The translations under genes were made by a program, and so were the position numbers. From Diprion similis (Eukaryota > Arthropoda > Insecta > Hymenoptera > Diprionidae): a DNA stretch of 64,000 nucleotides. Numbering within the stretch: the stretch's first letter is position 1; the number at the start of each line of letters is the position of its first letter. Below are positions 7,368 to 36,018 of the stretch, one piece after another. Location: NCBI RefSeq assembly GCF_021155765.1, contig NC_060109.1, forward strand, positions 1,885,001-1,949,000. The letters run 5' to 3'. The notes under the pieces are model-generated. The model saw only the letters and a list, made by a program, of their open reading frames with translations. It was not told the DNA's origin and ran no database searches.

Positions 7368-10300
7368 ATGCAACGATTCTATCTCCTGCTGATATTGTGG
7401 ATATATGCAGGTATTTTCAACGGGAAATGTTTAAATTATTTCAACTTTATCAATGAGAAAGCATTTATTAAAATTAATTCGTTATGCTTGTCACGTTTAA
7501 ATCGAACGTGTCTGATGTCGGAACCAAAAATGTATTAATAATGAATTCTGATAATACAACACGTTTTTGCATTACATAGTTAAAACAAATTTGGTCAACT
7601 TTACCAAATTGCAGAAATAAATATTGTTTTGACCATAATCGTGTTCCTCTTGTGCGTTGAATAGAAGTATCCTGAATATAAAATTTCTTTCAGGGAACGT
7701 ATTGATTTCGTTGATTTTCATTGTCTTGTACACACAAAACTGGACGAATTACTTCGAGCGAGAAATAATAGTTTTAACTGTTCATATAACAGCAATTTAT
7801 CTCATTGAAATGAAGTTTTCCGTCACTTTTGTTGACTTTGAGAAAGAGTTTCTTATCACGTGATTAAAGGGATTCATCAAATACCGAGAAATAAACCGAG
7901 TACACATTTTGACATGGCATATATATGAATATAATCATATGTTGTTGTATTACATAACAGATTGTATTATATAATATAGACAAATATCATATTTAACAAC
8001 ATTTCTTACCACGTTTAGGCTCATACGTAATCATCCTTCACACAATACTTACTTATACACAGATTGTTTACAACAACTTAGATAACAATTTCATCACATT
8101 TTGTCAATGTTCGCGTATTACGTTACAACTCAATATCGTACGGTTCATCCTACGACAATCATCAATAACAAAAAGAGTCCAACGAATCTTGTTACAGTAA
8201 TTATAAGTCATAATGTAAATTTTTTTATACATTATCCATCAATATTGACATCGTTATCGATCTGTGTTTCAATATTGCAAACTAAATGTTATCTTCTGAG
8301 TCTAAGAGAAAGTAATTGTTCATAATTTGAACTTTACGTTACTTTCAGCTCCACCTTGGGATCTTAATGAAGAGGGTCTACCGAACTAACGAACTCACGT
8401 TGACCATTCAAATCTTCTGTATTCGCAGCGGAATCTCTTCCCTGCGTACCTCGAGATTTCGGAAATGGAGGAACAGTGTGCGTCTGCAACGCGACTTACT
8501 GCGACAGTACACGAGAGCTCGAAATACCGGAAAAAGGTTCGTTCGTCCGATACACCTCGAGCAAAGACGGCTTGAGATTGGATCCAACGAAGGGTGCTTT
8601 CACCAACGAATCAGCAACCGCTGACGTTACTCTTCACCTGGATCTTCACACAACTTTTCAAAGTATTCATGGATTTGGAGGTGCTTTTACCGACGCGGCG
8701 GGCATCAACATAAAGTCATTGAGAAATGCTACGGCGGAATATATACTGAGGTACTTCGCACTGTTATTGTTGTATTTGAAACACAACAGTTACCTTTTGA
8801 CTTTTGTCCTTTTTATTAATATACTTCTACGATGGCAGGTTATGCAAATAGAAAAAAATGGGTGATCACATTCATACCTTCCAGAGGTTCAATTTCGGAA
8901 CCTTCCATTTTTTTTGTTGTCCGTTTCACGGGGAGTGACCCAGAATGCAAAATGGCTTAATAAACTAATTTCCCATCATGCAGATAGAAATTAATGAGTA
9001 GAACGCATTTTCTTCTAATTGTGAGACGAACTCACGTGGACCGGTTTCTTAGAAACTCTCCCGAACTAAGAAAGAACAACAAGTTCGTGAAACTTGTGAC
9101 GTACTACAGAGATTTTTAACGAAGTTATATCTGGGTCGGTTGGTATCGTCGATGAATAATCGTAAAAGCTATTACATTTAAGTTCTTCAGTGCTTATCCA
9201 AGTTCACGATAACCGAACTTTCCACAAAATGAATCTCCAAGCCTCCGCATGAAGACTCTGCAAATGAGTCATTAGCACCTTTCATCGTGTTTTGGATTTA
9301 ATCAGGCAACAGTCGAGTGGCTTAAAAAAATCCTCAAATTTTCAGGTCATACTTCAGCGAGGAAGGAAGTAGATACAACTTGGGTCGTGTTCCCATCGCT
9401 GGGTCTGACTTCTCCACACGAGAATATACTTACGATGACTACAAGGGTGACACGCAACTTCAGAACTTTTCCCTGACTGAGGATGATCTGAAGTACAAAA
9501 TTCCAATGATGCAAGAGGCTCTTAGAATGAATCCGGACCTAAAATTTTTAGCAGCTTCATGGACTGCTCCGCCTTGGATGAAGACGAATAATGCTTACAC
9601 GGGTTTCGGTGAGTCCGTCTTTCGTTTAGTTGAACAAACCCTGTAGTTCAAGCTCAGTAAAGGACCATTCATAAAACACGTAATTTCCGGTACCAGCACC
9701 AGTCATGGGATGTCACAGATGGGGAGGGAGGGAGCTAAAATATTTATGAAATCTGCCTCATGTATTTTATGAATGGCCTCCAATGTATCGATGGATATCA
9801 TACCTCATAACTCAATTTTGTACTTGGTAACTAAATTCCGCAGGATTTCTCCGTGAAGAGTACTACCAGGTGTACGCTGAATATATTGTGAAATTTATGG
9901 ATCTGTACAAAGGCTATGGGCTCGATATGTGGGCGATGTCGACAGGTAATGAACCGTCTAACGGCATCATACCAGTGACCGGTTTCAACAGCATGGGGTG
10001 GACACCTAGTGGCATGGGAAAATGGGTTGCGAACAACCTCGGCCCTACGATTAGTAGATCCAAGCACAAAGATACTGTCATTTTGGCTTACGACGACCAG
10101 ACGTTTGGCCTGCCCTGGTACGTCTCTGACATGTTTAGCAACAAGGTGGCAAAAAATTATACAGCTGGTATTGCCTTTCATTGGTACTGGGACAATATTG
10201 TACCGTCTTGGGTAATCGACCGAACCCGTTATCATTTTCCTGAAAAGTTCTTGATCATGACCGAGGCCTCAGTTGGTAAGTCATATCATTTTCAATCTAC

Positions 10301-11020
10301 GTGTTAATGCATGCTAGATATTTTACGATCCGTCTACACCAAGTATCATTTGCTCGTACAGGAGATAAACCATGGCAATTCAAAAAAGTCGACTTAGGAG
10401 CATGGAGTCGAGGGGAAATGTACATTACGGACATCATGGAAGTGAGTATGGTTTCCGTAAGCAGGCATGGCGAAAAGAGAGTATTCCCTTGTGAATGTAA
10501 TGATGGAAACTCTTTTGAAATGGATTTATTTGTCTTGAAGAATCTACAGCATTGGGTGACTGGTTGGGTGGACTGGAATCTAGCTCTCGATCAGCAAGGT
10601 GGTCCCAATTGGAAGAGGAACTTTGTGGATGCTGCGATTATCGTAAACGCTAAGAATGACGAGTTTTATAAGCAGCCAATGTTCTACGCTTTAGCCCACT
10701 TCAGCAAATTCATTCCACGAAAATCTGTCAGAGTGAAGCTTAGTCAGGAAGGATCATCTATAAATTCTGTCGCCTTCAAGACTCCGCAAAATAGGATTGT
10801 TATAGTTCTGTACAATCCGTGAGTTCAAATGATAATTTCTCGTTATGGTTTAGAATTAATTATGATTAATATTTTTTGAACACTGTGTGATCGGTCAATA
10901 AAAATCATTTCTCGTTTTAGACTTACCAAAAAGCAGCATGCAGTTATCCGTGACCAAGAAAGAGGAAACATCGACCTGCAGCTACCACCGAAATCGATTC
11001 ACACCATTGTGTATAAGTGA
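7368..11020 (+). CDS. GBA1: Lysosomal glucosylceramidase (GBA, GH30 family)
   Basis: Seven exons join in frame: 7368-7410, 8429-8750, 9346-9608, 9844-10275, 10362-10441, 10541-10818 and 10921-11020, giving 505 aa, close to the family's usual length. The enzyme hydrolyses glucosylceramide to glucose and ceramide in the lysosome. Exon 1 encodes only a hydrophobic signal peptide (MQRFYLLLILW...). The mature start follows at once, with the conserved Cys-rich 'VCVCNATYCD' block, then 'GFGGAFTDAA', 'SYFSEEG' and 'RVPIAGSDFS'. The catalytic acid/base Glu is E246 in 'STGNEPS', the nucleophile Glu is E350 in 'TEASVG'; their spacing of 104 fits the human enzyme's 105. Next come 'WNLAL', 'GGPNW' and 'FYKQPMFY', then the C-terminal beta strands ending 'HTIVYK'. 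Several Asn-X-Ser/Thr glycosylation sites are present. Intron 5 is short and unusual (see findings). An AATAAA lies at 11242. Confidence 0.96.
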
Positions 11021-11993: not shown

Positions 11994-12385
11994 TTATTTT
12001 TAAGGCATGGACATTGAAAAGTCCACTTTTTGTGGCAGTTGTCGTTCCGTAAAGTGACGATTTATACGGCAGCGAACAAAGTTGCGGAATAAAGTGTTTA
12101 TTCCGCAGTTTTGATGCGCAGCTCGAAGTGCGCATCCCAAACTGCCGAATAAAGTAGCTTCATCGAACAGATCGCGACATAACCTCACTCTTCGTTTTGC
12201 TTTTCAATGCGCATACCGTGAAAAATATCGTAAAATATTGTGGCATGGCCGTAAACCGTTTTTTGGCTCGGATAATTTCAATACTCGCTTCCGGCTCGTT
12301 TCCGGCTCGCCTTCAGCGCGTCCTGAAATCTCTTTCCTTGCCAAAAAAACAGGCGGTTTACGGGCATGCCACATAAATAGCTATT
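11994..12385 (-). mobile_element. Composite double-foldback MITE, copy 1
   Basis: A non-autonomous element of about 385 bp, found four times in this window (also 25500-25872, 29896-30280 and 54688-55065). It is made of two adjacent palindromic modules. One is bounded by inverted ends of the type TACGGCATGGGCATTGAAAAG, the other by TGGCATGCCCGTAAACCG. The first module also holds an inner palindrome around TTTATTCCGCA. There is no coding sequence. This copy lies in reverse relative to the copies at 25.5 and 29.9 kb. Confidence 0.8.
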
Positions 12386-12699
12386 ATTTGTTCTTTTAAT
12401 GAACTTGGTGCGATTGGCAACCGTCGATCTTGAAATATGTAACACATATGATCTTTTTTTTGAAGCGTCTGATGAACGATATGGACTACGGTATGGCGTT
12501 TATTGAAATATGTTTATGTACTGTCAAGCTTGTAAGTATCTTAATGTACGTATGTAAACATGAGCAGTATGCATGACAGCACAAAGTTAAATGCTCTGTA
12601 TTTGCCGCCAGCGTTTCTTTGTCTTCGAACTATTCAAACATCACACAAAATGTTGAACAAACGTACGCCAGACGCTTTAAATAAACGTATGTGGATCTG

Positions 12700-14498: not shown

Positions 14499-17400
14499 AT
14501 GAACGATTCAATGGCAATCGGTTTTGACCAATTGACGAAAGACAATTATCGAACTTGGCGGATGAAAGCCGAAGCTTCGTTGGAAGTATGTGATCTTTGG
14601 GATCATGTCGATAAGGACAAAGAATCATCTGCAGTGGATACGGAGTCGTGGATGAAGGAGGATAGAATAGCTAAATCAATATTAATTTTACATGTAAGCA
14701 GCTCGCTGCTTCCGTTGCTCGAAAACTGCAAAACTGCGTGCGAAGTTTGGTTGAAACTTGAAAATGTTTGCGGTAATCCAGATGAAGACGGCAAAGATTT
14801 GATAGATGATTCTGAAGATAATGATGAAGATGTAATTGTAAGTGCTATTGAGGATAGTGTCGAAGATTTTTTTAACATCATCAATGATTTATCAGAGAAA
14901 AAGGTAATGGATAATGAGAAATCACTGAGCTCTACCCTTACCGATAATTTATTTTTACGATTGAAGAAAGATAACGTTGGAAAACTTCCAGATAAAAAAA
15001 ATATCGTAAACACTGTCAGTGACTTTATTAATGTCATTGGTGAATTATCTAAGATTGAAATAGAGAAACAGAAAAATGAATTATGCTGCAAGCTCATTGA
15101 TAGTTTGCTTCTGGTATTTGAAATACATCCACATAAAAATAACAATGATGAAGCGGAAAGTGAAGCTGATGCGGCGGAAATCCGAGACGATAACGTCAAC
15201 GGTGATAAGAAAAAAAATTATGAAATTACGAGCCAAGAGATTCCGTTAGAGGCTTCTGAGGATAGCCAAACGCGAAGTGAAGAAATGTTGAATACCAATT
15301 TAGAGGCAGATGAAGAAACAGAGTCTGAGACGGAGTCTGAGCCAGAGAATGACATAGTAGATGAATTCGAAACACCATTTGATATGTATTATGGACGACC
15401 TGAATTCGTAGAGCAGGTCAATGATGAGAGATTTCCGTGCAAGTTGGGTAATTGAAGAAGCGACAACTTCAAAAAATTATATCAATGTGTTCTATTTGCG
15501 TCAGATTGATAAATTTTTAAATTCAATTTTTTAGGAAACAGCGATTCAACATGTTCATTCATAGATTTGAACACTCCACCACCTACACCAACTCTTGAAA
15601 AAACACGCAAATGTGGAGTGTGTCGTGAAGAAGGTATGAACAAAAACATATTAATGAATGAAATATGATTAACGATTTAACGTAACAATTATTTTTCAAC
15701 CTAGGACACAACAGAACAACTTGTCCAATGAATAAATCAATTGCTTCTGAACCAAAAACTTCTGCTTCTAAAGCCACCGAAAGTCCCAAGAGATCATATA
15801 AATGCGGAGTGTGTCGCGAAGAAGGTATAAACAAGAACATATTGATAAGTGAAATATGTTTGACGATTTAACGTAACAATTGTTTCTCAACCTAGGACAC
15901 AACAGAACAACCTGTCCAATGAATAAATCAGTTGCTTCTGAACCAAAAACTTCTGCTTCTAAAACCACCGAAAGTCCCAAGAGATCATATAAATGCGGAG
16001 TGTGTCGCGAAGAAGGTATAAACAAAAACATATTGATAAGTGAAATATGTTTGACGATTTAACGTAACAATTGTTTCTCAACCTAGGACACAACAGAACA
16101 ACCTGTCCAATGAATAAATCAGTTGCTTCTGAACCAAAAACTTCTGCTTCTAAAACCACCGAAAGTCCCAAGAGATCATATAAATGCGGAGTGTGTCGCG
16201 AAGAAGGTATAAACAAAAACATATTGATAAGTGAAATATGTTTGACGATTTAACGTAACAATTGTTTCTCAACCTAGGACACAACAGAACAACCTGTCCA
16301 ATGAATAAATCAGTTGCTTCTGAACCAAAAACTTCTGCTTCTAAAACCACCGAAAGTCCCAAGAGATCATATAAATGCGGAGTGTGTCGCGAAGAAGGTA
16401 TAAACAAAAACATATTGATAAGTGAAATATGTTTGACGATTTAACGTAACAATTGTTTCTCAACCTAGGACACAACAGAACAACCTGTCCAATGAATAAA
16501 TCAGTTGCTTCTGAACCAAAAACTTCTGCTTCTAAAACCACCGAAAGTCCCAAGAGATCATATAAATGCGGAGTGTGTCGCGAAGAAGGTATAAACAAGA
16601 ACATATTGATAAGTTAAATATGTTTGACGATTTAACGTAACAATTGTTTTTCAACCTAGGACACAACAGAACAACCTGTCCGATGAACAAATCAGTGGTT
16701 TCTGAACCAAAAACTTCTGCTTCTAAAGCCACCGAAAGTCCCAAGAGATCATATAAATGCGGGGTGTGTCGCGAAGAAGGTATAAACAAAAAGATATTGA
16801 CAAATAAAATTTGAGCGACGATTTAACGTAACAATTGCTTCTTAACCTAGGACACAATAGAACAACCTGTCCAATGAATAAATCAGCTGTTTTCGAATCA
16901 AAAACGTCCGCTTCTAAAGCCACCGAAAGTCCCAAGAGATCATATAAATGCGGAGTGTGTCGCGAAGAAGGTATGAACAAGAACATATTGATAAGTGAAA
17001 AATGATTGACGATTTAACGTAACAACTGTTTTCCAACCTAGGACACAACAGAACAACCTGTCCAATGAACAATTTATTCGCTATTGAACCAAAAACTGCT
17101 GCTTCTACAGCCACCGAAAGTCCCAGATCATATAAATGCGGCATATGTGGTCAACAAGGTATAAACAGCACCGTCCAAGAATTCAGGGTCACGCTGAAAA
17201 TTCAAAAATAGATATCGAAATTTAGACCGGTATAGTCAATGAAAACATTTCAAAATCATCCAAAAGTTGTTTGTTCACTCAAACGAACAAACTTTAAGTT
17301 AATGCTTTTATTTTGAAGTGAATGGGTTGAGAATATATTTCAATGGCTATCCTTATCGCTATCATGTTGACAGTATAAATTGATATCAGGAGTTAAGATG

Positions 17401-19421
17401 AGGAGAACTAATCATTTTTTTTTTCTCGTCTAAGGTCACAACAGAAGAACTTGCGGCCTTCAGACTTCTTCACCATCGTCCCATCACATGTCCATCCAAT
17501 CTCCCTCGTCGTCTTACTCCGGAGGTGGTCGCAGTTATAAGTGCAGCAACTGTGGTGTTTCAGGAAAGAATTCGACGTCCTATGAGGAACTTTTAATATT
17601 AAATCTGACGACCCAACAACTTGACCCTATTCGATTTTTGTTTTATTTTTTGCCTATATCGTATAGATCAACCGTCAGACTCGTTCGAAAATTCACATTT
17701 CGGCGATACATTAGTTTCTGAGATCGACATTGCTTTGGTGAATTGAGAGAAAAGTTCTCTCACCCAAGTGTTGCGGTATTCCATGCACTTTGCGATGGAA
17801 ATTTTTATGAAAGGTTCCGATCCATTATAGCACAGTTTCCAAAAGAAGCTTACGTGAATCATTCGTAATCTGAAAGATAGTCTACCGATCTCAAATTAAC
17901 AGTATAACATTTTTTAACGACACGCACCATATTTTGGCGTTATAGATACTGAAATATTATTGTAGAGTCGATTCTATTATCGTAGCTTAAGAACACGGTC
18001 CAGAAATTCTTCCATAGCTGGATGAATGATGCAATTCAATATTACGTTGCGTACAACCACGACACTTGTCATAACGTTTCAGGAACTTTATTGCTGAAAT
18101 ACAGCTGCAAAAATTTATAGCGGCACGTTTATTTTGAAAGAATTAATGCTCAGCATTAGAAAGACGTATTGCATAATACTTTCAGTCAAATCGATTACGG
18201 ATCTTTAATGTTACACATGATTGCGGTATATTTTTTATTAGAATTGTACTCCGATGGGAGAAAATTTTTTCTCGAATCTAAGACCGAAAATTTTGTAGTT
18301 GAATCACTGAAATTAATAGGACGGATGCCAGCTGTGGAAATATCGTTGGTTTCATAGACTAAAAAAAATTCATGGCTCATTGCCTGTGAAGGTCAAGCGA
18401 AAAATCGAACAGGGTCAGGAAATGAATCGCGTTTTTTTCATTTTCGATCTAATATGAAATGCCTCGTATGATGATAATTATTGAGAGGTATTCCACGCGT
18501 ACGGTATAACAATTGGTTTTGTAATTAAAGTATATAATTGTTTTAAATATCCAGGACACAACATAAGAACATGCCCATACCTGGTATCAGAGATTTCATC
18601 ACCTCAACCTACCGCGTCCTACAGCACTCCAGTGAGATCGTACAGATGTGGATTGTGTGGAGGAGAAGGTACTGTAAGGCAGTAATAATTCACGGATTAT
18701 CGGTACAAAATTTTTATTCAAGGGGGTGTCCTGGTCGATTCCAACGTTAACGCAGATTTCTCCGAATATCAAATTCCACGTGTCTGAAACTTGACGAAGG
18801 GCTTAAACAGCCCCGTCATGTACACAATTCGAGACAAAGACACTCCAACAGATTTTCATTCGATGCAGAAGTAAAAAAATGGCACAAATTCTACGAATTG
18901 ATTCTGAATTGCAATTTTGTAGAAACCATATTTACATTTCTGTGTTGAACTGACATGCATTTGAGTGTTTTTGTTCAGAAGTGCACATAGAATGGGGCTG
19001 TTGAGCCCTTTTTCGGGTTTGAGGTACATCGACTTCGATATTTGGAAATACATACATCCAATGGATCGCTTCTAGACGTGCTGCTTTTATATACAGACAT
19101 TGTATTACGTAATGATGATCCATGTCATGAGTAAAAATAAAAAGTCAACTTATCTTTTTCCTCATGTAAGGTCACAACCGCAGCACTTGCGGTTATCGCA
19201 GCATTTCGTCGTCGTCTTATGATTACGTCTTCACACCATCCCCCTCGCCGTCATACTCTGGAGGTGGTCGCAGTTATACTTGCGGCAATTGCGGTGGTTC
19301 GGGTATGAGTATCCCACTCTGTAGAGAATATTATTATTTACAGTTAGAATAATGTTGTTTCAACTGATGTTGAGGATGTTTTCCATTCACAGGACACAAT
19401 CGGAGAACGTGTACACGTTGA
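14499..19421 (+). CDS. Domesticated copia-type Gag protein with an array of 11-12 CCHC zinc knuckles
   Basis: Exons: 14499-15447, 15535-15633, 15705-15824, 15896-16015, 16087-16206, 16278-16397, 16469-16588, 16660-16779, 16851-16970, 17042-17158, 17435-17563, 18555-18668, 19171-19302 and 19393-19421. They encode 802 aa, or 759 if the eleventh, whose donor is lost, is skipped. Residues 8-90 match the copia-type Gag domain (UBN2/Retrotran_gag_2 pattern): 'FDQLTKDNYRTW', then a Trp block, 'AKSILILHVSSSLLP' and 'TACEVWLKLE'. Residues 121-152 and 173-204 are two copies of a 32-aa helical repeat. An acidic Glu-rich stretch follows. From exon 2 onward each exon ends with C-x2-C-x3 and the next opens with G-H-x4-C, so splicing rebuilds C-x2-C-x4-H-x4-C knuckles. 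All introns are phase 1. The ATG is chosen because it aligns with the paralogue's start at 28844. No protease, integrase, RT or LTR is seen. The role is unknown; nucleic-acid binding and perhaps capsid-like assembly are inferences. Confidence 0.82.
15634..17041 (+). repeat. Tandem 191-bp exon-intron cassettes (split zinc knuckles)
   Basis: Each unit is a 120-bp exon plus a 71-bp intron. Cassettes starting at 15705, 15896, 16087, 16278, 16469, 16660 and 16851 keep the 191-bp period exactly; an eighth (17042-17158) has lost one codon. The units beginning 15896, 16087 and 16278 appear identical through exon and intron. The outer units (15705, 16660, 16851, 17042) carry scattered changes. This gradient, conserved in the middle and diverged at the edges, is typical of unequal exchange or gene conversion. 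Confidence 0.92.
18755..19050. mobile_element. Small foldback element inside an intron of the zinc-knuckle gene
   Basis: The left arm near 18762-18825 (GGGCTTAAACAGCCCC and flanks) is an imperfect inverted copy of 18978-19045 (GGGGCTGTTGAGCCC and flanks). The arms are about 65 nt with no coding content. It lies between the last two knuckle-bearing exons and does not touch splice sites. Confidence 0.55.
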
Positions 19422-22565: not shown

Positions 22566-24735
22566 AAAAATCAAAAATTGCAAATCCACGTTAATCCATT
22601 GAAGCCCAAAGGGAGACTAGCAGACATATTGAAAAACTGAATACCGAGGTGAAAGCATTTGGTCAAATCAAACATAATTTATTATGTTAAAAAAAAGTCT
22701 GTTCCAATTGTTTGAACGAGTGTTGCTTAAAAAATTTATTGAAGAATGCAATATCCGCAAAAACTGATAGTGATCATCGATTTTACAGAAAAAAATCATT
22801 TACAATTAATTCATTGGACAATTTTTTTGACAACTCAATTTGTTCTAAGGAATCAGAAAAAAAGATTGCAGACAATCTCACATAGCGAAAAACTGAAAAA
22901 TTGGATGAGATTCGTAATCAACGACCCCAAAAACCCCCGAACAACAAGTTTCAAGTGAATCCATCTCATTTCGAGAATTGCATCCGCCATATTGGAACCA
23001 CCATTTTGTTTTTCCACAATTTTCACTTCAGAATCGTAATCAGCGACCCCAATAACCCCCATGTACTATGTTTCAAATAGATTTAACTACGTTTTTGAGT
23101 TTCAATCAGCTTTTCGGGAATCCTGCATAGTCTCTCATCCCTTTTAGCAGCCATATGTGACAGATCAAACCTGTTGCCACCCTATATGGTTGACGATATT
23201 TTTAGGCACCTTATGTGATAGGTCTATCTTCAATGTTTGATGACCTATATTTACTTGTTATTTATAGATGTCACATATACATATTTTCGTGCTCTGATTT
23301 CGCTCAGTAGCGAAAAAGTAAGTAAATAAATGAGTATCACTGCGCACAAGTTATTAACGAGAAAACAACTGGTTCTTTGACCATTAATTTACAACTAAAT
23401 TGTGTGACTCTACAAAGGACGTGAACAATAATACTAAGTTTGGCAGGTTTGAGTCTGTCACAAACATAATTCACGAAGTAAATTGAAAATCGGTTTTAAT
23501 GTTCAGGATGCAGCAGAACTACTTGTCCGACGAATGAATCAGTCACTTCCGCGTCGAAATCTCCTGACCGAGCTATTAAGATTCCCAAAAGATCGCACAA
23601 GTGCGGAGCATGTGGCGTAGAATAATCAAAGACGAATCAATTAATAACATGTAATCATGATAAGACTCAAATTTTGTATTTGACTTTAAGGGCTCAACGT
23701 AAGGACCTGTCAGATGAAAAAATCAACTGTATCTGTGTCGATATCTGTTGTTAAGACCCATACAACTCCGAAGACAAATAAATGTCAAGGATGCGGCAGA
23801 AAAGGTACAATCAAATATGTAATAATTGCCGAGGCATAATTTGGGATATACATATATAATGAATTGGTTCGAAATTCCAGGACACAATATAAGGACGTGC
23901 CCATGGATGGGATCAGTACCTTTCTTGCCTCGATCTGCTACCACTGGCAATCGTACGGGATCTTACAGATGTGGACTGTGCGGAAGAGAAGGTATTACAG
24001 TGTAATATCAACGTACAGGTCATACGTAAGATCAATGTTTCACAAATTTGTTGATTCGCAGGTCACAAAAGTTCATCATGTTGGCGCAATTCTGTAACAC
24101 CAATACCTTCGGCAAATGACTCTCCCAGATGCAGCATCTGTGGCGGTACAGGTATCCCAGTCTCATTTTCAGATTTTCTATGACCATTGTTATCGTTGTG
24201 ATATTGATAGTAATTATTATGACAAGTCAAGACGGGGAAAGTTGATCTACTTTTACTTTTTTCTGCAAGGTCATAACAGTAGAACTTGCGGCCGTCACAA
24301 CACTTCGTCAGTGTCCGTTCACACACACTCGTACTCGGAGGTACTTTACTCATCGTCATGTTCAGCACCATCTTACTCCGATGGTGGTCATCATGGTTAT
24401 ACGTGTGGAAACTGCGGTGGTTCAGGTATGATTACCTCACCAATTACCTCATCTTCAAAAAATCAATCTTGTTCGTCCGATGCTGTATTGATTGAATGTT
24501 ACATTCCTTTCTAGGACATAATCAAAGAACGTGCTCAGGCTAATTCGCATCACAGGGCATTGATGTTTTATTTTAACTTCTGTAACTGTCAAGGGTAAAA
24601 GGATTAGTCTAGTTTTTTTTTCAATAGGTATACTTTCCTTTGTTGTTCTATCAAGCGTAATATAATATTACATTAAGTTGATTGTCTTTTTTCTAAGGGT
24701 CGTTATTTCTTTTTTTTTTACCCTTCAACATGTAA
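22566..24735 (+). repeat. Segmental duplication block with knuckle exons, proximal copy
   Basis: Corresponds to 31020-33165 in the distal copy with many point differences and small indels. It begins with noncoding DNA (AATTGCAAATCCACGTTAATCC landmark, here cut short) and contains the six degenerate knuckle exons. Confidence 0.85.
23507..24543 (+). pseudogene. Gag-less zinc-knuckle pseudogene (proximal copy of the second family member)
   Basis: Six knuckle exons align one-to-one with exons 4-9 of the intact distal gene: 23507-23622, 23691-23804, 23881-23991, 24062-24151, 24270-24425 and 24515-24543. The Gag-domain exon and exons 2-3 are missing. The first exon has lost its donor: four bases (GGTA) present at 32098-32101 are absent here. 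Its opening knuckle His is Cys, as in the distal copy. In the second exon the His of G-H-x4-C has become Leu, while the distal copy keeps His. Exons 3-6 still rebuild three complete knuckles and the final stop is retained. A short knuckle-only product from a later ATG cannot be excluded, but the pattern is that of decay. Confidence 0.78.
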
Positions 24736-25499
24736 CGGAAAATGGATTCATCAACTCACATCAGGTAACGTTAATGTATCTTTTAAGAACTATAAATATC
24801 GGGTGAAAAATAATAAATTTATGCTTATTCCTTTATTCGACTATTGTTGAATGTTTTCCTATCAAGTCTAGAACCATACCTTGAATTATCCCTTTCTCCC
24901 AGTGGTTACTGCTTGTGCTTATTATCTTCGACACGTAATGGAAAATCCAAATATTGACTCGCATCATCAAGAAGTTAATCTATTTTTAACAATTCCAACT
25001 ATAAAACTAAAACAATACGTTTACTTGTTTATTTCCTCCATGCAACCTTATGGTCATTGCTTGTTCTTGCTTCCTCAAATACCGAACAAAGATATGATTT
25101 TTTTCTGTTTGTCGAAAGGCAAATTTATGGATGACGTAATAGTCTATCTCAATATGTTACAATTGTTTTCCCAAAACTCTGCAATTGACACGGCAGCTTC
25201 TCCGGAAACTGTCCTGGAAATTTGCATGAGCCGTGCAAACATCCGTTTGGTTATAGTTTTTTGGTGAAAACGACGTAGAATAGAAAGAACTCGACACCCG
25301 ACCGAGCGTGGGAAGAGCGTGGCAATTGCACGCACGGGCCGAATAGGGAGATTTAGCAGTACATCCTACCCACTCGAGCGCTTAATTCTAAGTAGATCGT
25401 GCGCGCGCGCACCCGCTAGACCCCGTTATCGCATAGCGCGCCGCTATGCGGCTGGGTGCCCTCACGAGGTTCGAGCACGAACACATCGGAAAATGGTTA
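24736..25499. other. Segment absent from the distal duplicate; no gene seen
   Basis: About 1.1 kb here (to about 25838, including the MITE) has no counterpart in the distal copy. A GC-rich patch at 25250-25490 is unlike its surroundings. A 128-codon frame at 24881-25267 has no recognisable domain and is not called. Confidence 0.45.
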
Positions 25500-25872
25500 T
25501 TTATGTGGCATGCCCGTAAACCGCCTGTTTTTTGGCAAGGATAAAGATTTCAGGACTAGCCGAAGGCGAGCCGGAAGCGAGCCGAAAGCGAGTACTGAAA
25601 TTATCCGAGAGAAAAAACGGTTTACGGTCATGCCACATATAATATTTTTTACGGTATGGGCATTGAAAAGCAAAACGAAGAGTGAGGTTATGTCGCGATC
25701 TGTTCCACGAAGCTACTTTATTCGGCAGTTTAGGATGCGCACTTCGAACTGCGCATCAGAACTGCGGAATAAAAACTTTATTCCGCAACTTTGTTCGCTG
25801 CCGTATGAAGCGTCACTTTACTGAACGAAAACTACCACAAAAAGTGGACTTTTCAATGCCCATGTCGTAAAA
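25500..25872 (+). mobile_element. Composite double-foldback MITE, copy 2
   Basis: Same two-module structure as the element at 11994-12385, here in plus orientation. Its last 37 bases or so also survive at 33169-33205 in the distal duplicate. The insertion therefore predates the segmental duplication, and the distal copy later lost most of it. Confidence 0.82.
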
Positions 25873-28233
25873 ATGTAACTACAGGGAAATTCGATTCTAA
25901 CTACATTTTTAATTTGTAATTAAGAAAACAAAAATTATTCTCATTACATTTGGTATTTCTCATGAGGAGAAAAATCGATTCTAATTACATTTGTAATTTG
26001 CAATTAAGAGAAAATCGATATTAAATACGTTCGTAATTTTTGCTTGAAATTTTTATAATTACAAATTTAAAATTTAATTAGTATTTTTTCTTTTCATTAA
26101 TTGATTCGATAAAAGAAATTGCCGCTGGGTAGAGCAGTTAATAATATCCAGGCAAAGAAATTTTGTGCCTCAAAACAACTGAATGTTCAGTCACTGCGAA
26201 AAATTTTTGTAGCACCGAATTTCATCACTTGTTTCAACCATGCAACTCTTGACTCAACAAAATATGAATTGAAATTAACTTTCATTAACCATGCATGGAC
26301 TATATGAAAGTGATGTTGCGAGGAAAAACCATTTTGAAATTCAATATGAGATCGCTTTGACCAATGTGTCGATACAAACAACCAAAGAACGGTGATAATT
26401 TCCCATATTTTTATCTAGAACAAGAATCACGTTACTGATTAAGCGACTATAATTTTCTACTTTATTACTAAAAAATTTCCTCTTTTTATTCATAAAAATT
26501 GTATGAACATTTTGAAACGGGAAATCTTGTGTTCCAGCTTTAGCTTAACACAGATGTTCTTCAATGACTTGGAATAGACCTGAGGGTTGTTTTAATGAAA
26601 ATTTTTCCGAATGTATACATATATCAGGGTGGTCCTTATTTGGGGGTCAGAAATTTTTTTTTGGGACTCCCCCGGATGTGTTTCAAGTCGTAAAAAAAAT
26701 CTGTGTAAAGTTTTAAGCTTCTACGTCAACTGAAACACGTGCCTCTAAGCTCCTAATGTAATTTTTATAGCCAGTTACTTCGTTTTGTATGACTTTGTTG
26801 TAAATTGAGGAATCGATTTGAAACTTGGCAGAGCTGTTGCTTGTAATGATAGACACAAGCCCCGAAAATTTGAAAACTTCATAATTATTATGCCCTTATA
26901 TATAAGCCTAATAAAAAGTGATGCTATTAAGCTTACATAAAAAAGAATGATACATTATAAAATTGTGACAAAATTTTGAAATTTTCACGGTTTGTTCCTA
27001 TCATTATAAGCAAAAACTCTGCCAAGTTTCTAATCTCATCTGGAGGGTGAATCGATAAAAAAAATTTCCAACCAGCAAATAATAATAATAATAATAATAT
27101 ATAAATATTTATGAGTGATGAATTAAAATTTTTGACTTAAGCATCTGCCATTCCTGAAATCGATAGAATTTACATCCAATTCCAGAAACTGGAAAACGTT
27201 TAAAGGTTATTACTTATTGTTACAAAGGAATAGTTTGTAACAAAATACAAGCGGCATTGTTTTTGGTTAAATCACTGCTTCCTGATAATTCGCAAACGTC
27301 ATAGCTCGACGTGTGGCTCTCACAGCGAGAGTCGCGGCCTGTAATGAAAAAAAGCAATGAAAGATTAAAAGCATATCGTAACACTGGTCAAAAGTCATTT
27401 TGTTGCTTCTGATATTTGGCGTGTTTTTGAAAGATTTGACGCAGATGTAGTTTTTCGAAATTGGCTCTAGTTTTTTGTTTGTCGACATTTTCACATATGA
27501 TTAAGAAAAGCAATTTTTAGATGAAAAATTAGATTTCTTTTTCTGATATCCAAAGGTTATCAAAAAATATTCACCACTAGCTTTAATTCTACCCAAAAAC
27601 TTCATTTAGACAAAAGTGAAAAAGGTGTTGAAAATATAATATTTTGTTGTTCCCAAAAAGAAGTCACCACAGGTTTCGTGAAAAGGGTGGGTATTAGGGT
27701 GTTCCATAAAAAAAAATTGCTTTTCCAAACGCGCATAAAAATTCCAGTATACAATCTCAAATAGAACATCTAAGCCAAATTTGAGTTCTTAAAACTGATT
27801 TTTTCCATTTTTCATTCAAATAAAAGGTGGAAAAAATTTTTTCGATTTTTTTTCCTCCCTAACGGCTTGACTTATAAACTATCTAAATACAGATTCTCAC
27901 GGGAAATCACACGCTCCATAAATAAGTACTGAATCAAAATTTTCCTCACTTCAACCGATCGAGAGATTTTTTCCCATAAACATTAAGTCATGTCGAATAC
28001 GATACTACAATAACATAAAAACTTGAGCCAATCTAATACAATCATATACTCGCAAATTCTACATTCTCTGGTACCAGAATTCACATAAAAAATCAGTATA
28101 ACAAAAAGGTTTCTATCTTGTAAAGCTGTCGTAATCAAACGTGTTGACTTTGGGGATCTTTCTGGCTTAGATGCTCAAAAAAAGACTATTTTGAGGAATT
28201 TTTTATGAAAATACCATTATTGATATTAATATC
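25838..28233. repeat. Segmental duplication tail block, proximal copy
   Basis: Matches 33168-36018 across its length, except for an extra stretch of about 450 bp (33600-34065) in the distal copy. It includes an (AAT)n run near 27082-27100, mirrored at 34866-34880. Open frames within it are broken differently in the two copies, so I read it as noncoding. Confidence 0.85.
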
Positions 28234-28748
28234 AGGTTTCTCAAGTAGTCCCGGAGGATATTGCTAATGATGGATCACTTGGATCATCTTGTACGTCTTG
28301 TTTTCCGCACTTCTCGGCTACTCTTGGCCTCAAAACTTCGAACGAGTAGCCGAGAGAACGTGCAGAGTAAGCGTGCTGGCATGGCTGACATGTGCCGTTC
28401 TATTGCAAGTTCAATGAAATCAGACAGCCGTTCGTAGCATGCCAATAACTTTCCTGTACAAGCCGTGAGCTTCTCTTCTCGGTCAATAGCCTACGTCACC
28501 TCGCGCGTGGCAAGTTATCTTTATTTCTCAATGCACTTGAGGTGACACTGTACTCAGTCTCTTGATAAAAACTGGGTCGTCATACGCTCGCAAATTGCGG
28601 CATCGCGAGGATGTGAGACGGTCTTGATCGCGGGAGTTCCATCAAAAAGTTGACCAGAAAGTGCAAATCTACGAAGTGTTACCTTATTGTTGATAAGCAT
28701 AAGTTTCTGTTGTACATCGTAGCTTTACTCGAGTGACTTTCAGAATCA
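28234..28748 (+). promoter_or_regulatory. Probable promoter of the second Gag/zinc-knuckle gene
   Basis: Distal copy of the 515-bp block at 22050-22563. It ends at TCAGT (28746-28750), a good match to the arthropod initiator, about 97 bases before the ATG at 28844. No TATA box is seen at the right distance. The equivalent position in the proximal copy reads TCATT. Confidence 0.45.
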
Positions 28749-28843: not shown

Positions 28844-31800
28844 ATGGACGATTCGAGTGCGGTGGTCTTTGACGTATTAACCAAAAACAATTATAAAAGT
28901 TGGCGCATTAAAGCCGAGGCTTTGCTAAAAGTATTTAATCTTTGGTATTATGTCATAGAAAACAAAGAACCACCGAAGGACGTGAAATTGTGGATGAAAA
29001 AGGATAAACAAGCTAAATCTAAATTGATATTGCATATCAGCAAGTCATTGCTTCCGTTGGTCGATAATTGCGAAACTACGCGTGAAGTTTGGTCGAAGCT
29101 TGAGAATTTTTACGGCAATCAAGATGAAGAATTTGAAGCTTCAATTTATAGTTTTAAATCAAACGATAAGGATTCGATTATCAATGCCATTGTGGAGTGC
29201 GTCAAAGATTTCTTTAATGATATCAACGATTCATCCAAGAGAAAAATATCCGAAGATAAAAAATCACTCAGCACTACTTTTACCAATAATTTATTCTCGC
29301 GGTTGAAGAACATCAATCCTAAAAATTTTCTAGATGAGAAAATGATCGCGAATGCTGTCAGTGATTTTATCAATGGTATTGATCGATTATCCAAAACTGA
29401 GATTAAAAAACGAACGAACGAATTGAGCTGTAAACTCATTGATAACTTGAGAGAGTTGATTGATTTATGCAATGCATTGTTATTCAAGCATCACTCCGAT
29501 TACAAGAAAGTACCACACGGATTGCGCAATCAATATGGTAATAGAATATTCTGAATAGATGAATATATCATGATAACATTATGCTAGTAGTTTATTAATT
29601 GAGTTTTTCAGGATACAAGAATCCACTGCATCCATTGACGCATCTTCATACTCCACCATCTACTGTGACTTCTGAAACAAAGCGGAAGTGTACAATTTGT
29701 CGTAAAGAAGGTACTGAACTTATCAGTTAAACAAACAGTTTTGTCACAATAAATACAAAAATTGATTTTACCACTTAGGGCATAACCGTAGAACGTGCTC
29801 GCTGAACAGACCGATCGTTCCCCAGCCGGACTTTGAAAGAGCCACCAGAGCTTTTAAAAGGTCGCATAACTCTGAAGCCTGTGATGACAGAGGTATAATA
29901 GCTATTTATGTGGCATGCCCGTAAACCGCCTGTTTTTTGGCAAGGATAAAGATTTCAGGACGAGCTGAAGGCGAGCCGGAAGCGAGCCGGAAGCGAGTAT
30001 TGAAATAATCCGAGCGAAAAAACGGTTTACGGGCATGCCACATACAATATTTTTTACGGTATGGGCATTGAAAAGCAAAACGAAGAGTGAGGTTATGTCG
30101 CGATCTGTTCGACGAAGCTACTTTATTCGGCAGTTTGGGATGCGCACTTCGAACTGCGCATCAAAACTGCGGAATAAAGACTTTATTCCGCAACTTTGTT
30201 CACTGCCGTATAAAGCGTCACTTTACGGAATGAAAACTGCCACAAAAAGTGGACTTTTCAATGCCTATGCCGTAAAAACAATTGAATTAATTGATCTTAG
30301 AATATTGTTACTTGACCGACACGCGCGTGGGTGGAATCGAGGGAGAAAGCGGGGGAAGGAGGTAAGACCCAGGCGTATTTTTTTTTTTCAACTATTAGGT
30401 ATAGGCCATCCAGGCGTGGTGTCCCACCCACCCAATCTTCTCCCCTCTACTCCCTCCTGAAGCGCTCAGCTTTGCCGAACAGCTGGCCATAATTCGAAAA
30501 ATGAAGTTTCATTTTTTGGATTTAGAATAAAGAGACGAATGGAGTAATGTTTAAAGAGTATAATGAAATATTTCATAAGGTATAATGAAATATTTCATAA
30601 GGATTAATGAAGTTTATCTGGCAAGTAGGAGCATGTACAAAAGAGACTTTCGCACAAGTAGCAACTCAATCGTTCGAACTCATATTCAAACGTCATATTA
30701 AAAAATTCGTAAAGTTGAAAGAAGAAAGTCGTAAAGTTGGTCTTTCTTAATTCTGCGAAATGCAGGTTTTAGGTTATAGGAAGTACTTTTATCATATGGG
30801 TAAAAAGTTGTAAGAGATACTCATGAATTAATAGCTGAAGAACGTCTAAAGTAGAAAATCATGAAACATTATGTTCGATCATTGTAGAAAAGTAGAGAAA
30901 AAGTTAAATGTTCGGCAGTGTTCCGCGACGGAACAAGTTTTGAATTGAAGTTTGCAGTATTATGTACAAAATTAGCAAGAATAAGCTGCCAACATGTGCC
31001 ACAGCGTTTTTAGTGCACGTTGGAATAAAAAAAATTGCAAATCCACGTTAATCCATTAAAGCCCATAGGGAGACTAGCAGACATAACGAAAAACTGAATG
31101 CCGAGATGAAAGCATTTGCTCAAATCAAATATAATTGATTATTATAAAAAAGTCTGTTTCCAATTGCTTGAACGATTTTTTATTGAAAAATTTGTTGAAG
31201 AATGCGATATTTGCAAAAATTGATGGTGATCAACGATTTGACAGAAAAAAAATCATTTACAATTTATTTATTGGACAATTTTTTTGCCAACCCAATTTGC
31301 TTTAAGGAATTAAACAAAAAGATTACAGGCCAGCCGATATAGCGATAAACTGAACAATTGGATGAGATTCGTAATCAGCGACCCCAAAGACCCCCGAATA
31401 ACAAGTTTCAAGTGAATTCACATCATTTTGAGAATTGCATCCGCCATATTGGATCCGCCATTTTGTTTTCCCACAATTTTGACTTCACATTCGCAATTTG
31501 CGACCCAATAACCCTCATGTACTACGTTTCAAACAGATTAAATTACGTTTTTGAGTTTCAATCAGCTTTTCGGGAATCCTGCATAGCCTTTCATCCTTTT
31601 TAGCAGCCATATGTGACAGATCAAACCTGCTGCCACCCTATGTGGTTGACAATCTCTTTAGTCACCTTATGTGATAGGTCTATCTTTAATGTTTGACGAC
31701 CTATATTTTATGTTATTCATCCATTTTACATATACATATTTTTATGCTCTAATTGTGGCCTTACGCGCTGAACATACGACAAAAGCGAAGAAGTGAGTAA

Positions 31801-33016
31801 ATAAATGAATGTCACTGCGCACAAGTTATTAACGCGAAAACAACTGGTTTTTTGACCATTAATTTACAACTAAATAATGTGACTCTACAAAAGACGTAAA
31901 CAATGATACTCAATTGGGCGGGTTTGAGTCTGTCACAAACATAATTCACGAAGTAAATTGAAAATTGGTTTTAATGTTCAGGATGCAGCAGAACTACTTG
32001 TCCACCGAATGTATCAGTCACTTCCGCGTCGAAATCTCCTGACCGAGCTATTAAGATTCCCAAAAGATCACAGAAATGCGGAGCATGTGGCGTAGAAGGT
32101 ATAATCGAAGACGAATCAACCAATAACATGTCATCACGATAAAACTCAAATTTTGTTTTTGACTTTAAGGGCACAACGTAAGGACTTGTCAGGCGAATAA
32201 ATCAACTATTTCTGTGTCGATACCTGTTGTTAAGACCCCTACAACTCCGAAGACAAATAAATGTCGAGAATGCGGCAGAAAAGGTACAATCAAACATGTA
32301 ATAATTGACGAGGCATAATTTACGATATACAATTATAATGAATTGGTTCGAAATTCCAGGACACAATATAAGGACGTGCCCACGGATGGGATCAGTACCT
32401 TCCTTGCCTCGACCTGCTACCACTGGCACTCGTACGGGATCTTACAGATGTGGGCTGTGCGGAGGAGAAGGTATTACAGTGTAATATCAACGTACAGGTC
32501 ATACGTGAGATCAATGTTACAAAAACCTTTTGATTGGCAGGTCACAAGAGTTCATCATGTTCGCGCAATTTTGTAACACCAATACCTTCGGCAAGAGCCT
32601 CTCCCAGATGCAGCACCTGTGGCAATACAGGTATCCTAGTCTCATTGTCAGATTTTTTTATAACCATTGTTATCGTTGTCATATTGATAGTAATTATTAT
32701 GACAAGTCAAGACGGGGAAAGTTGATCTACTTTTACTTTTTTTCTGCAAGGTCATAACAGTAGAACTTGCGGCCGTCACAGCACTTCGTCAGTGTCTGTT
32801 CACAAACCCGGGTACTCGAAAGTACTTTACTCACCGTCATGTTCAGCCCCATCTTACTCCGGTGGTGGTCATCGTGGTTATACGTGTGGGATCTGCGGTG
32901 GTTCAGGTACGAGTACCTCACAAATTACTTCGTTTTTCAAAAAATCAATCAGATGCTGTATTAATTGAATATTACTTTCGTTTCTAGGACATAATCGAAG
33001 AACGTGCTCAGACTAA
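28844..33016 (+). CDS. Second Gag-domain/zinc-knuckle protein (intact paralogue)
   Basis: Nine exons: 28844-29537, 29612-29710, 29779-29892, 31982-32098, 32170-32283, 32360-32470, 32541-32630, 32751-32906 and 32988-33016; 507 aa. Residues 8-90 hold the same copia-type Gag pattern as the gene at 14499: 'FDVLTKNNYKSW', 'AKSKLILHISKSLLP' and 'TREVWSKLE'. The 32-aa helical repeats fall at about residues 120-151 and 172-203. The acidic linker of the first gene is missing. Introns are all phase 1, and exon 2 is 99 bp in both genes, so the gene structure is ancestral. Seven knuckles are rebuilt by splicing, of which the second is dead (see findings). Exons 6, 8 and 9 correspond to the last exons of the first gene ('SYRCGLCGGEG', 'GHNRRTC' end). 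Intron 3 (2.1 kb) carries a MITE copy. Divergence of the seven exons from one another contrasts with the identical cassettes of the first gene. The function is unknown. Confidence 0.82.
29896..30280 (+). mobile_element. Composite double-foldback MITE, copy 3, in intron 3
   Basis: It begins just after the donor of exon 3 of the second Gag/zinc-knuckle gene (AATAGCTATTTATGTGGC, then the TGGCATGCCCG end) and closes with ATGCCTATGCCGTAAAAA. The proximal duplicate has no equivalent, because that region is missing there. Confidence 0.82.
30281..31019. other. Intronic DNA of the second Gag/zinc-knuckle gene, unique
   Basis: No repeat partner is seen in this window apart from a short internal duplication at about 30560-30603 (AATGAAATATTTCATAAGG twice). 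There is a polypyrimidine tract near 30380. No coding exon is recognised. Confidence 0.4.
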
Positions 33017-33165
33017 TTCGCATCACAGAGCATTGATGTTTTATCTCAACTTCTGTAACTGTCAAGGGTAAAAGAATTAGTCTAGTTTTTTTTTCAATAG
33101 GTATACTTTCCTTTGTTGTTCTATCAAGCGTAACATAATATGACAGTGAGTTGATTGTCTTTTTG
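31020..33165 (+). repeat. Segmental duplication block with knuckle exons, distal copy
   Basis: Counterpart of 22566-24735. The splice sites and knuckle His residues damaged in the proximal copy are intact here, except that the first knuckle exon of the block has Cys for His in both copies. Confidence 0.85.
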
Positions 33166-33167
33166 TC

Positions 33168-36018
33168 ACAAAAAGTGGACTTTTCAATGCCCATGTCGTA
33201 AAAATGTAACTACAGGGAAATTCGATTCTAACTACATTTTTAATTTGTAATTAAGAAAACAAAAATTATTCTTATTGCATTTGGGATTTCTCATGAGGAG
33301 AAAAATCGATTCTAATCACATTTGTAATTTGTAATTAAGAGAAAATCGATATTAAATACATTCGTAATTTGTACTTGAAATCTTTATAATCACAAATTAA
33401 AAATTTAATTAGTATTTTTTCTCTTCATTAATTGATTCGATGAAAGAAATTACCGATGGGTAAAGCAGTTAATAATATCCAGGCAAAGAAATTTTGTGCC
33501 CTCAAACAACTGAATGTTCAGTCACTGCGAAAAATTTTTGTAGCACCAAATTTCATCACTTGTTTCAACCATGCAACTCTTGACTTAACAAAATATGCAT
33601 TAAAACGAGCTCAATACGTTTTGGTACAACAATTTTCTATTTTCAAATCAAAACGATTGAGGTACGTTTGGTCAAATTTTTAGTTATTTGAATCATAAAT
33701 TTTCGTACGTTATTGCAAAGAACTCGCGTCGTATTATTTTTACTGAATTGATAGTCAGCATGATGATTCAAAGGCTTAATTCAGTTCTATATTAAATTGA
33801 AATAAATATTACGTCAGACAAAAGTATTTTGTTAAATCAAATACGTATTGCGTTCACCGCATTTGACTATATCATTCAATGAAAAATGCTATATGAGTTA
33901 TGGAAGATGAGATTTGAAATAGCTATTTCTAAACGGCAGGCAAAAAAAAAAAAATTAAACAATTAGAAAATGTATATTTTCTTGGCGTCGAAGTAGGAAA
34001 TAAATCGGCGAACAATTCGGTACGGATCGACCCAAACCTTATTCACGTTAATTTGGGCCACCTCGTATATTAATCCATGTAGGGACTATATGAAAGTAAT
34101 GTTGCGAGGGAAAACCATTTTGAAATTCTATATAAGGTCGCTGTGACCAATGTGTCGATAGATACAACCAAAGAACGGTGATAATTTCCTATATTTTCTT
34201 CTAGAACAAGTATCACGTTACTGATTAAGCGGCTATAATTTTCAACTTTTTTACTAAAAAATTTCCACTTTTCATTCATAAAAATTGTATAAGCATTTTG
34301 AAACGGGAAATCTTGTGTTCCAGCTTAAGCCTAACACAGATGTTCTTCAATGACTTGGAATAGATCTGAGGGTTGTTTTAATGAAAATTTTTTTCGAATG
34401 TATACATACATTAGGGTGGTCCTTATTTGGAGGTCAGAAATTTTTTTTTGGGACTCCCCCGGATGTGTTTCAGGTCGTAAAAAAAGTCTGTGTAAAATTT
34501 AAGCTTCTACGTCAACTGGAACACGTGCCTCTAAGCTCCTAATGTAATTTTTATAGCCAGTTATTTTGTTTTATACGACTTTGTTATAAATTGAGGAATC
34601 GATTTGAAACTTGGCAGATCTGTTGCTTGTAATGATAGACACAAGCCCGGAAAATTTGAAAACTTTATAATTATTGTGCCTTTATATATAAGCCTGATAA
34701 AAAGTGATGCTATTAAGCTTATATAAAAAAGAATTATACATTATAAAATTGTGATAAAATTTCGAAATTTTCACGGTTTGTTCTTATCATTATAAGCAAA
34801 AACTCTGCCAAATTTCTAATCTCAATTCGGGGGGCGTTTCGATAAAAAATTTTCCAACTACCAAATAATAATAATAATATATAAATATTTATGAGTGATG
34901 AAGTAAAATTTTTTAACTTAAGCATCTGCCATTCCTGAAATCGGTAGAATTTACATCCAATTCCAGAAACTGTAAACGGTTGAAGCTTATTACTTATTGT
35001 TAGAAAGGAATAGTTTGTAACAAAATACAAGCGGCATTGTTTCTGGTTAAATCACTGCTTCCTGATAATTCGCAAACGTCATAGCTCGACGTGTGGCTCT
35101 CACAGCGAGAGTCGCGGCCTGTAATGAAAAAAAGTAATGAAAGATTAAAAGCATATCGTAACACTGGTCAAAAGTCATTTTGTTGCCCCTGATATTTGGC
35201 TTGTTTTTAAAAGATTTGACGCAGATGTAGTTTTTCGAAATTGGCTCTAGTTTTTTGTTTGTCGACATTTTTACATATGATTAAGAAAAGCAATTTTTAG
35301 ATGAAAAATTAGATTTTTTTTTCTGATATCTAAAGTTTATAGGAAAAATATTTATCAATAGCTTCAATTCTACTTAAAAACTTTGTTAAGGCAAAAGTGG
35401 AAAAGATATCGAAAATATAATACTTTGTTGTTCCGAAAAAGAAGTCAACACAGGTTTCGTGAAAAGGGTGGGTATTAGGGTGTTCCATAAAAAAAAATTT
35501 CATTTTTAAACGCGCATTAAAATTCCAGTAGACAATTTTAAATACAACATCTAAGCCAAATTTGAGTTCTTAAAACTGATTTTTTCCATTTTCCATTGAA
35601 ATAAAAGGTGAAAAAATTTTTTTTGATTTTTTTTCCTCTCTAACGGCTTGACTTATAAAATATCTAAATACAGATTCTCACGGGAAATCACACGCTCCAT
35701 AAATAAGTACTGAATCAAAATTTTCCTAACTTCAACCGATCGAGAGATTTTTTCCCATAAACATTAAGTCATGTCGAATACGATACTACAATAACATAAA
35801 AACTTGAGCCAATCTAATACAATCATATACTCGCAAATTCTACATTCTCAAGTACCAGAATTCACATAAAAAATCAGTATAACAAAAAAGTTTCTATTTT
35901 GTAAAGCTGTCGTAATCAAACGTGTTGACTTTGGGAATCTTTCTGGCTTAGATGCTCAAAAAAAGACTATTTTGAGGAATTTTTTATGAAAATACTATTA
36001 TTGATATTAATGTGAGGT
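33168..36018. repeat. Segmental duplication tail block, distal copy
   Basis: Counterpart of 25838-28233. It opens with the last 37 bases or so of the MITE and ends at AGGTTTCT (36011-36018). The extra stretch at 33600-34065 is absent from the proximal copy. No gene is seen. Confidence 0.85.

Follow-up and report, generated by a model that had tools for sequence, protein, structure and literature searches.

The pine sawfly Diprion similis (Diprionidae) carries a gene that joins the N-terminal portion of a copia-type Gag to a long array of CCHC knuckles, and nearly every intron of this gene cuts a knuckle at one and the same codon. The gene, here called gene A, lies in a stretch of 64,000 nucleotides of the 269-Mb genome (C5:1885001-1949000, referred to as the window; coordinates without a prefix count from its first position). 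A preliminary description of this stretch had presented a single gene. By sequence comparison we find a family instead, which comprises gene A, the paralogues B and C, and a relic termed B'. We consider it probable that these are host genes of pine sawflies, in which a Gag N-terminal domain (NTD) is combined with a split-knuckle array amplified cassette by cassette, and that their products bind nucleic acids and perhaps act against copia elements. The origin of a host gene from a copia Gag, as proposed in the preliminary description, agrees with the Gag homology, the lack of pol, the purifying selection, the relatives in Neodiprion and the frame-keeping cassettes.

Architecture and genomic restriction of the split knuckles

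Gene A extends on the forward strand from an ATG at 14499 to a stop codon ending at 19421, and the gene model that we derived from the sequence has 13 exons and 12 introns. All 12 introns are of the GT..AG type and all 12 lie in phase 1. Eleven of them cut a CX2CX3G/HX4C knuckle at the Gly codon before the His (a slash marks a splice border, real or expected). The rule of a phase-1 intron at this Gly, which had been described for every knuckle, thus applies to 11/11 split knuckles; only the first intron, which leads from Gag into the array, differs and splits no knuckle (CKL-G/NSDSTC).

Exon 1 (14499..15447, 949 bp) encodes the capsid (CA) NTD part of the copia-type Gag, then a stretch in which no domain is recognised, and finally a linker that is acidic (net charge -26 over 101 aa). 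Exon 2 (15535..15633) provides a linker and the front half of knuckle 1, and has no back half. Exons 3-10 (15705..17158) are eight cassettes, each consisting of a back half, a linker and a front half. Exons 3-9 are 120 bp each and exon 10 is 117 bp, while introns 2-9 are 71 bp, giving a unit of 191 bp; a tandem repeat scan detects the array at 15609-17167 with a period of 191 and 8.2 copies. Downstream, exon 11 (18555..18668) is a cassette GHNIRTC...CGLCGGEG, exon 12 (19171..19302) is a terminal-class cassette GHNRSTC...CGNCGGSG, and exon 13 (19393..19421) holds the final back half GHNRRTCTR, followed by the stop.

A further cassette on the same strand, at 17435-17567, possesses an acceptor and both knuckle halves, and shows CAG/GAAAGA where a GT donor is due. 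We refer to it as the donor-less cassette. It resembles the cassette at 19171-19302, and skipping it leaves the frame intact. The frame-keeping model encodes 759 aa with 11 knuckles, and with the donor-less cassette included, 12 matches to an acceptor plus back half are counted in gene A. The 11-12 CCHC knuckles that had been reported beside the copia-type Gag correspond to these two counts. Meanwhile, the lengths of all 11 internal exons are divisible by three: 99, 120 (seven times), 117, 114 and 132 bp. With phase-1 borders on all 11, cassettes can be added or skipped in frame, as had been claimed, and the donor-less cassette can likewise be dropped.

On its forward strand the window contains 21 front-half and 24 back-half patterns, and on its reverse strand none of either. 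In 50 dinucleotide shuffles of the window, the means are 0.62 and 0.40 and the maxima 3 and 2, respectively. Searching the whole genome for an acceptor plus a back half yields 32 matches: 12 in A, 3 in B', 5 in B, 10 in C and 2 elsewhere (one on C4 and one, L070, on C12). The reversed-pattern control gives 3 matches genome-wide. A looser back-half pattern has 34 matches, 25 of them in the loci A, B', B and C, and its reversed control has 12. None of the nine outside looser matches combines an AG acceptor with a same-strand front half in the 3.5-5 kb around it, and seven of the nine have no front-half-like pattern on their own strand within 3.5-5 kb. Apart from these chance-level matches, the split-knuckle pattern is limited to the four loci A, B', B and C.

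Four of the outside loci were considered as split-knuckle genes and rejected. L065 and L067 have a front half 656 and ~1,570 bases away, respectively, and no AG acceptor; L069 and L070 have the AG acceptor and no same-strand front half. A genome search with the PF13696 profile gives 69 matches, the top one on C2.

Gag descent and members of the family

The Gag part of gene A is composed of DUF4219 and the first ~40% of Retrotran_gag_2. Pfam assigns PF14223 (Retrotran_gag_2) to residues 26-90 with E 3.4e-13 and PF13961 (DUF4219) to residues 12-35 with E 1e-6. The former match covers profile positions 3-72 of 172; in L014, a copia element of the same genome, positions 1-171 are covered. Residues 9-91 share 41% identity with copia of the sawfly's own genome. 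A profile made from six Gag parts matches the Copia virus-like particle (VLP) protein in the PDB (E 1.3e-5, positions 15-94), hhalign against copia Gag gives 98.8% over 85 columns, and both of these matches end near residue 97. The copia-type Gag of the preliminary description thus stands as a homology (PF14223, PDB, hhalign) and does not stand as a complete capsid, since only the N-terminal lobe appears recognisable in gene A.

The array knuckles (CX2CX4HX4C) match zf-CCHC_2 (PF13696), and for a 97-aa piece of the array Pfam reports no PF00098 even at E 10. L014, on the other hand, has one PF00098 knuckle, which is unsplit. The array knuckles are therefore not of the copia Gag type. Because the array fits PF13696 whereas the copia element carries PF00098, the array may have been attached to the Gag piece instead of arising by multiplication of Gag's own knuckle. 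The GHNRRTC knuckle type occurs also in plant and other proteins.

We looked at eight Gag-matching loci, L012-L019. One unsplit knuckle is found in four of them (L013, L014, L015 and L018; open reading frames (ORFs) of at least 130 aa), and the other four have no knuckle in the stretch examined. L014 combines a full-length Gag match with Pol_BBD and gag_pre-integrase domains. When copia ORFs of at least 190 aa (L013-L019) are used as queries against the window and the 20-kb C region, the Gag exons of A, B and C are all that they match, and an 832-aa YVDD ORF from the adjoining stretch of the L014 element (L074) has no match in either. The absence of pol is thus confirmed, in that copia queries including the reverse transcriptase find none near A, B or C.

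Paralogue B (28844-33016, forward strand) has 9 exons and 8 introns. Its exon 1 (28844..29537) encodes the Gag domain without the long acidic linker, and exons 2-9 (29612..33016) encode six standard knuckles and one altered pair (SEACDDRG/GCSRTTC). The spliced model is identical to the predicted protein P0006 (LOC124406370, 507 aa). Paralogue C (C5:2976061-2979214) lies 1.07 Mb from A and has 13 exons and 11 knuckles. In both paralogues the frames are open and the introns are GT-AG throughout, and all internal exons (7/7 in B, 11/11 in C) are multiples of three with phase-1 borders. The Gag identity to A is 55% for B and 51% for C. Gag matches above 50% identity occur at only three places in the genome, namely A itself, B and C, all on the same contig.

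The fourth locus, B', lies on the forward strand within 22573..24691 and has its knuckle cassettes at ~23507-24543. It is a decayed copy of the gene B tail, 89% identical to 31030-33164. One donor has been lost through a small deletion, no Gag match was found there with the copia ORF queries, and the exons have diverged from B (48/615) about as much as the introns (50/562); for these reasons we regard B' as a relic.

Several repeats accompany these loci. Intron 3 of B (29893..31981, forward strand, 2,089 bp) carries one copy of a dispersed repeat of ~385 bp, whose copies are 92-95% identical and lie at 11994-12387 (reverse strand), 25492-25873 (forward), 29895-30281 (forward) and 54688-55059 (reverse). 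Tandem repeats of 41 bp with related sequence are located downstream of B' (25887-26039) and of B (33205-33373), inside the duplicated block. Elsewhere in the window, a 201-bp tandem repeat with 2.2 copies and 85% matches spans 46083-46521, and Pfam identifies an MFS transporter (1197-1631), a glycosyl hydrolase of family 30 (9870-10822) and a thrombospondin type-1 domain (60857-61435) as neighbours.

Cassette arrays, predicted proteins and relatives

In the arrays of A and C the cassettes are nearly identical. The A array has seven 120-bp exons with 71-bp introns; the exons have a mean identity of 0.96, the introns of 0.91. The C array has five 117-bp exons, with 74-bp introns before and between them, and its mean identity is 0.945 for exons and 0.97 for introns. 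Exons 4-7 of A are identical among themselves, and so are exons 4-7 of C. Comparing the units of A with those of C gives 68-71% identity, which is lower than within either gene. In a cassette tree, built on 40 columns and 46 distinct rows, the 3' cassettes of A, B, C and Neodiprion cluster by position, whereas the near-identical ones stay within their gene and species; its deep forks are tentative and many forks are unresolved. The Neodiprion virginianus protein contains five identical cassettes with a sequence of their own. Either the units would have been amplified repeatedly, or each gene would have homogenised an array that was already old. Exon-cassette amplification, suggested in the preliminary description, gains from the near-identical arrays of frame-keeping cassettes in both A and C.

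We notice that the unit is 191 bp in both A (15705-17041) and C (C5:2977392-2978155), although exon and intron share it differently (120+71 in A, 117+74 in C). Elsewhere in C the cassette units add up to between 186 and 276 bp, and the match at 191 bp may be a coincidence.

The predicted proteins differ in whole cassettes. The predicted C protein omits exactly cassettes 4-7, which are present in the genome, and keeps the frame. In N. pinetum, two predictions carry the labels isoform X5 and isoform X13; one is 665 aa and the other 545 aa long, a difference of exactly three cassettes (120 aa), with 400 residues in common from one end and 179 from the opposite end. Knuckle number had been suggested to vary by splicing. 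The C and N. pinetum predictions show that the frame survives the loss of cassettes; splice variation itself is putative. Near-identical cassettes can mislead gene models, which makes the Neodiprion cassette counts uncertain and possibly too low. A contrast between one cassette in N. lecontei and five in D. similis C was dropped; the predicted D. similis C also shows one. In N. virginianus P0003 and N. pinetum P0004, some in-frame cassettes have lost knuckle residues (e.g. EHNRSTR).

The predicted gene A protein, P0005, has 7 knuckles. Its exit from the frame after the donor-less cassette (17435-17567, 18555-19000) is either an annotation error or real decay. Because P0005 leaves the frame here, gene A may be partly decayed.

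Related predicted proteins are found in Neodiprion lecontei, N. virginianus, N. pinetum and N. fabricii; these are candidates for the orthologues that the preliminary description had proposed to look for. In the first relative search, 8,000 candidates were scored. Using residues 1-215 of P0002 as the query, we obtained 7 proteins, from diprionids only; this search requires shared words, and absence elsewhere is weak evidence. One predicted protein of the braconid wasp Microplitis mediator also matches (E 3.5e-57). It contains DUF4219, 7 knuckles and a match to Retrotran_gag_2 that lies right on the cut-off; its Gag match stops at residue 84, and its knuckles begin at 162. Its last cassettes cluster with the terminal class of the sawflies (98/85), a placement that is tentative. 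A search of viral_contigs for viral relatives of the M. mediator protein gave one stretch that fitted a pattern and none that was confirmed.

Competing explanations and possible function

Direct repeats flank two of the genes. Around B, a 1.96-kb pair (26284-28241 and 34069-36022) is 93% identical, and a second, 0.44-kb pair (25836-26274 and 33167-33605) is 95% identical. These repeats extend the B'/B tandem duplication, and at its whole length the 1.96-kb repeat has only two copies, while portions of it recur at many genomic sites. Around C, repeats of ~1.24 kb (C5:2972635-2973872 and 2980752-2982018) are 93.6% identical and 8.1 kb apart, with no further genome match, no TG..CA ends and no ORF of at least 90 aa. 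No direct-repeat pair flanks A within 11-23 kb. Long terminal repeats (LTRs) had been described as absent; this agrees with the result for A, and for B and C the statement needs amending to direct repeats without the look of LTRs. Since repeats that are still 93-94% identical arose long after A and C diverged (dS 1.05), they are not the LTRs of a founding element. We infer that they are better explained by a local duplication after which one of the gene copies was lost.

That these loci are copies of a retroelement with additional knuckles, and not host genes, is an extremely improbable explanation and one that is largely contradicted already. Gag homology to elements of the same genome and the direct repeats around B and C speak for such copies. 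Opposed to them are the 12 introns in A and likewise in C, the missing pol match and the missing repeat pair at A, together with the structure and age of the repeats and the confinement of the close Gag matches to A, B and C on a single contig.

Between the paralogues, the Gag dN/dS (w) is 0.21 for A-B (bootstrap 0.10-0.36; dS is high here, 1.53, with 468/500 bootstraps usable), 0.32 for A-C (0.20-0.46) and 0.27 for B-C (0.17-0.41). These values of 0.21-0.32 indicate purifying selection on Gag and favour a host gene. For the cassettes, w is 0.58 for B-C (0.40-0.90) and 0.35 for A-C (0.20-0.61), and for the A-array against the C-array it is 0.12 (350/500 bootstraps usable).

These numbers bear on the idea of neutral array growth, in which an exon-intron minisatellite expands by unequal crossing-over, the symmetric exons tolerate it, and the knuckle number has no functional meaning. 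Array introns and exons that are both nearly identical would be expected of such growth, as would the persistence of the donor-less cassette and the altered knuckles. The array-to-array w of 0.12 argues against it, as does the full CCHC set at all 11 split sites of A (without the donor-less cassette) and of C, and we find neutral growth somewhat unlikely. Quite unlikely is a decaying family, formerly useful and now shedding cassettes and copies in D. similis. To this would belong the B' relic, the donor-less cassette of A, the altered knuckle and repeat-bearing intron of B, and the out-of-frame annotated protein of A; yet B and C retain open frames, GT-AG introns and a Gag w of 0.27 between them, and long relatives are predicted in Neodiprion. 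The genes might instead encode a cellular RNA carrier or organiser like Arc or Copia Gag, whose particles package or tether host RNA with a capacity set by the array. A Gag part that matches the Copia VLP protein of solved structure and a basic many-knuckle tail are in keeping with a carrier, and the Copia Gag of Drosophila assembles into capsids that move from one cell to another (PMC11835246). A carrier is nevertheless unlikely, as Pfam, hhalign and the PDB profile search detect no capsid C-terminal lobe, and in M. mediator the Gag match stops well short of the knuckles.

The undetected C-terminal lobe, which known capsids possess, also weighs against a host gene family of the kind that we favour, and other observations do so too. 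The predicted proteins are weak on cassette number, with the D. similis C model dropping four genomic cassettes; P0005 uses the donor-less cassette, runs into the intron, leaves the frame and loses the last knuckles; one knuckle of B is altered, and B' has decayed to a relic. Long direct repeats lie on both sides of B and of C, and the cassette w of 0.58 for B-C means weak constraint.

If the host-gene reading is right, the array could have arisen as follows. In line with the notion of a proto-splice-like insertion site, one intron would have entered a knuckle at such a site (AAG/G). Tandem duplication of the knuckle with its intron would have produced symmetric 1-1 exons, unequal crossing-over or gene conversion would amplify or even out the units within each gene, and a broken cassette would drop out with the frame unharmed. 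The capsid-NTD piece may serve self-association or the binding of copia Gag, while the knuckle array may bind RNA or single-stranded DNA with a strength set by the knuckle number. The net charge of the array, +35 in A and +47 in C, fits nucleic-acid binding. As the most likely role we tentatively suggest interference with the copia-type elements of the genome, which is still short of an even chance; the nucleic-acid-binding mode would be more secure than the target, and the anti-copia role is less certain than the anatomy. Positive selection is a usual mark of restriction factors. We further speculate, with low probability, that cassette number sets the strength or target of binding in an arms race with copia, through unit copy number over generations and cassette skipping within an animal, and that such a protein possibly predates the split of sawflies and parasitoid wasps. 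Such tuning would be an RNA-side parallel to the evolution of finger arrays in PRDM9 or KRAB zinc-finger genes.

Domesticated Gags such as Arc, PNMA and Fv1 are a known kind: conserved, low-copy host genes of Ty3/gypsy or retroviral descent. To our knowledge they have no knuckle arrays of the sawfly kind, and we know of no domesticated Gag whose knuckles stand in a row and are all interrupted at one codon. In LPA kringles and PRDM9 fingers, the repeat number shifts in frame by unequal crossing-over. We are not aware that their unit consists of one short exon and one short intron cutting every motif at one codon. Plant zf-CCHC_2 proteins with 4-8 knuckles, one named HEXBP, carry the same subtype CxxCxxxGHNxRTC in a row; in contrast to the sawfly genes, the Pfam accessions listed for these hits include no Gag family. 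Literature searches, which covered open-licence PMC only, found no publication on a split-knuckle Gag gene.

Among published systems, the yeast restriction factor DRT2, domesticated from Ty1' GAG, is similar in that a Ty1/copia-type GAG piece is retained as a host gene (PMC10951436). DRT2 retains the capsid C-terminal domain as an intact ORF within the remnant of a GAG that has solo LTR pieces at its borders, whereas the sawfly genes keep the capsid N-terminal part, carry a knuckle array and are interrupted by as many as 12 introns. DRT2 illustrates that part of a Ty1-type Gag can turn into a restriction factor. Among relatives of solved structure, Drosophila Copia Gag (8s41, 8vvw) is the closest to the Gag part; it comes from an insect and has a spliced gag isoform. 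It differs in belonging to a functional transposon, in having both capsid lobes and in placing a zinc finger towards the C-terminal end of the nucleocapsid (NC) region (PMC11835246).

With all knuckles cut at one codon, the cassettes are interchangeable. Given the near-identical arrays in two paralogues and in a Neodiprion protein, pine sawflies would show a modular nucleic-acid-binding protein in the course of being rebuilt, and would be a place to ask whether knuckle number is selected, spliced or drifting.

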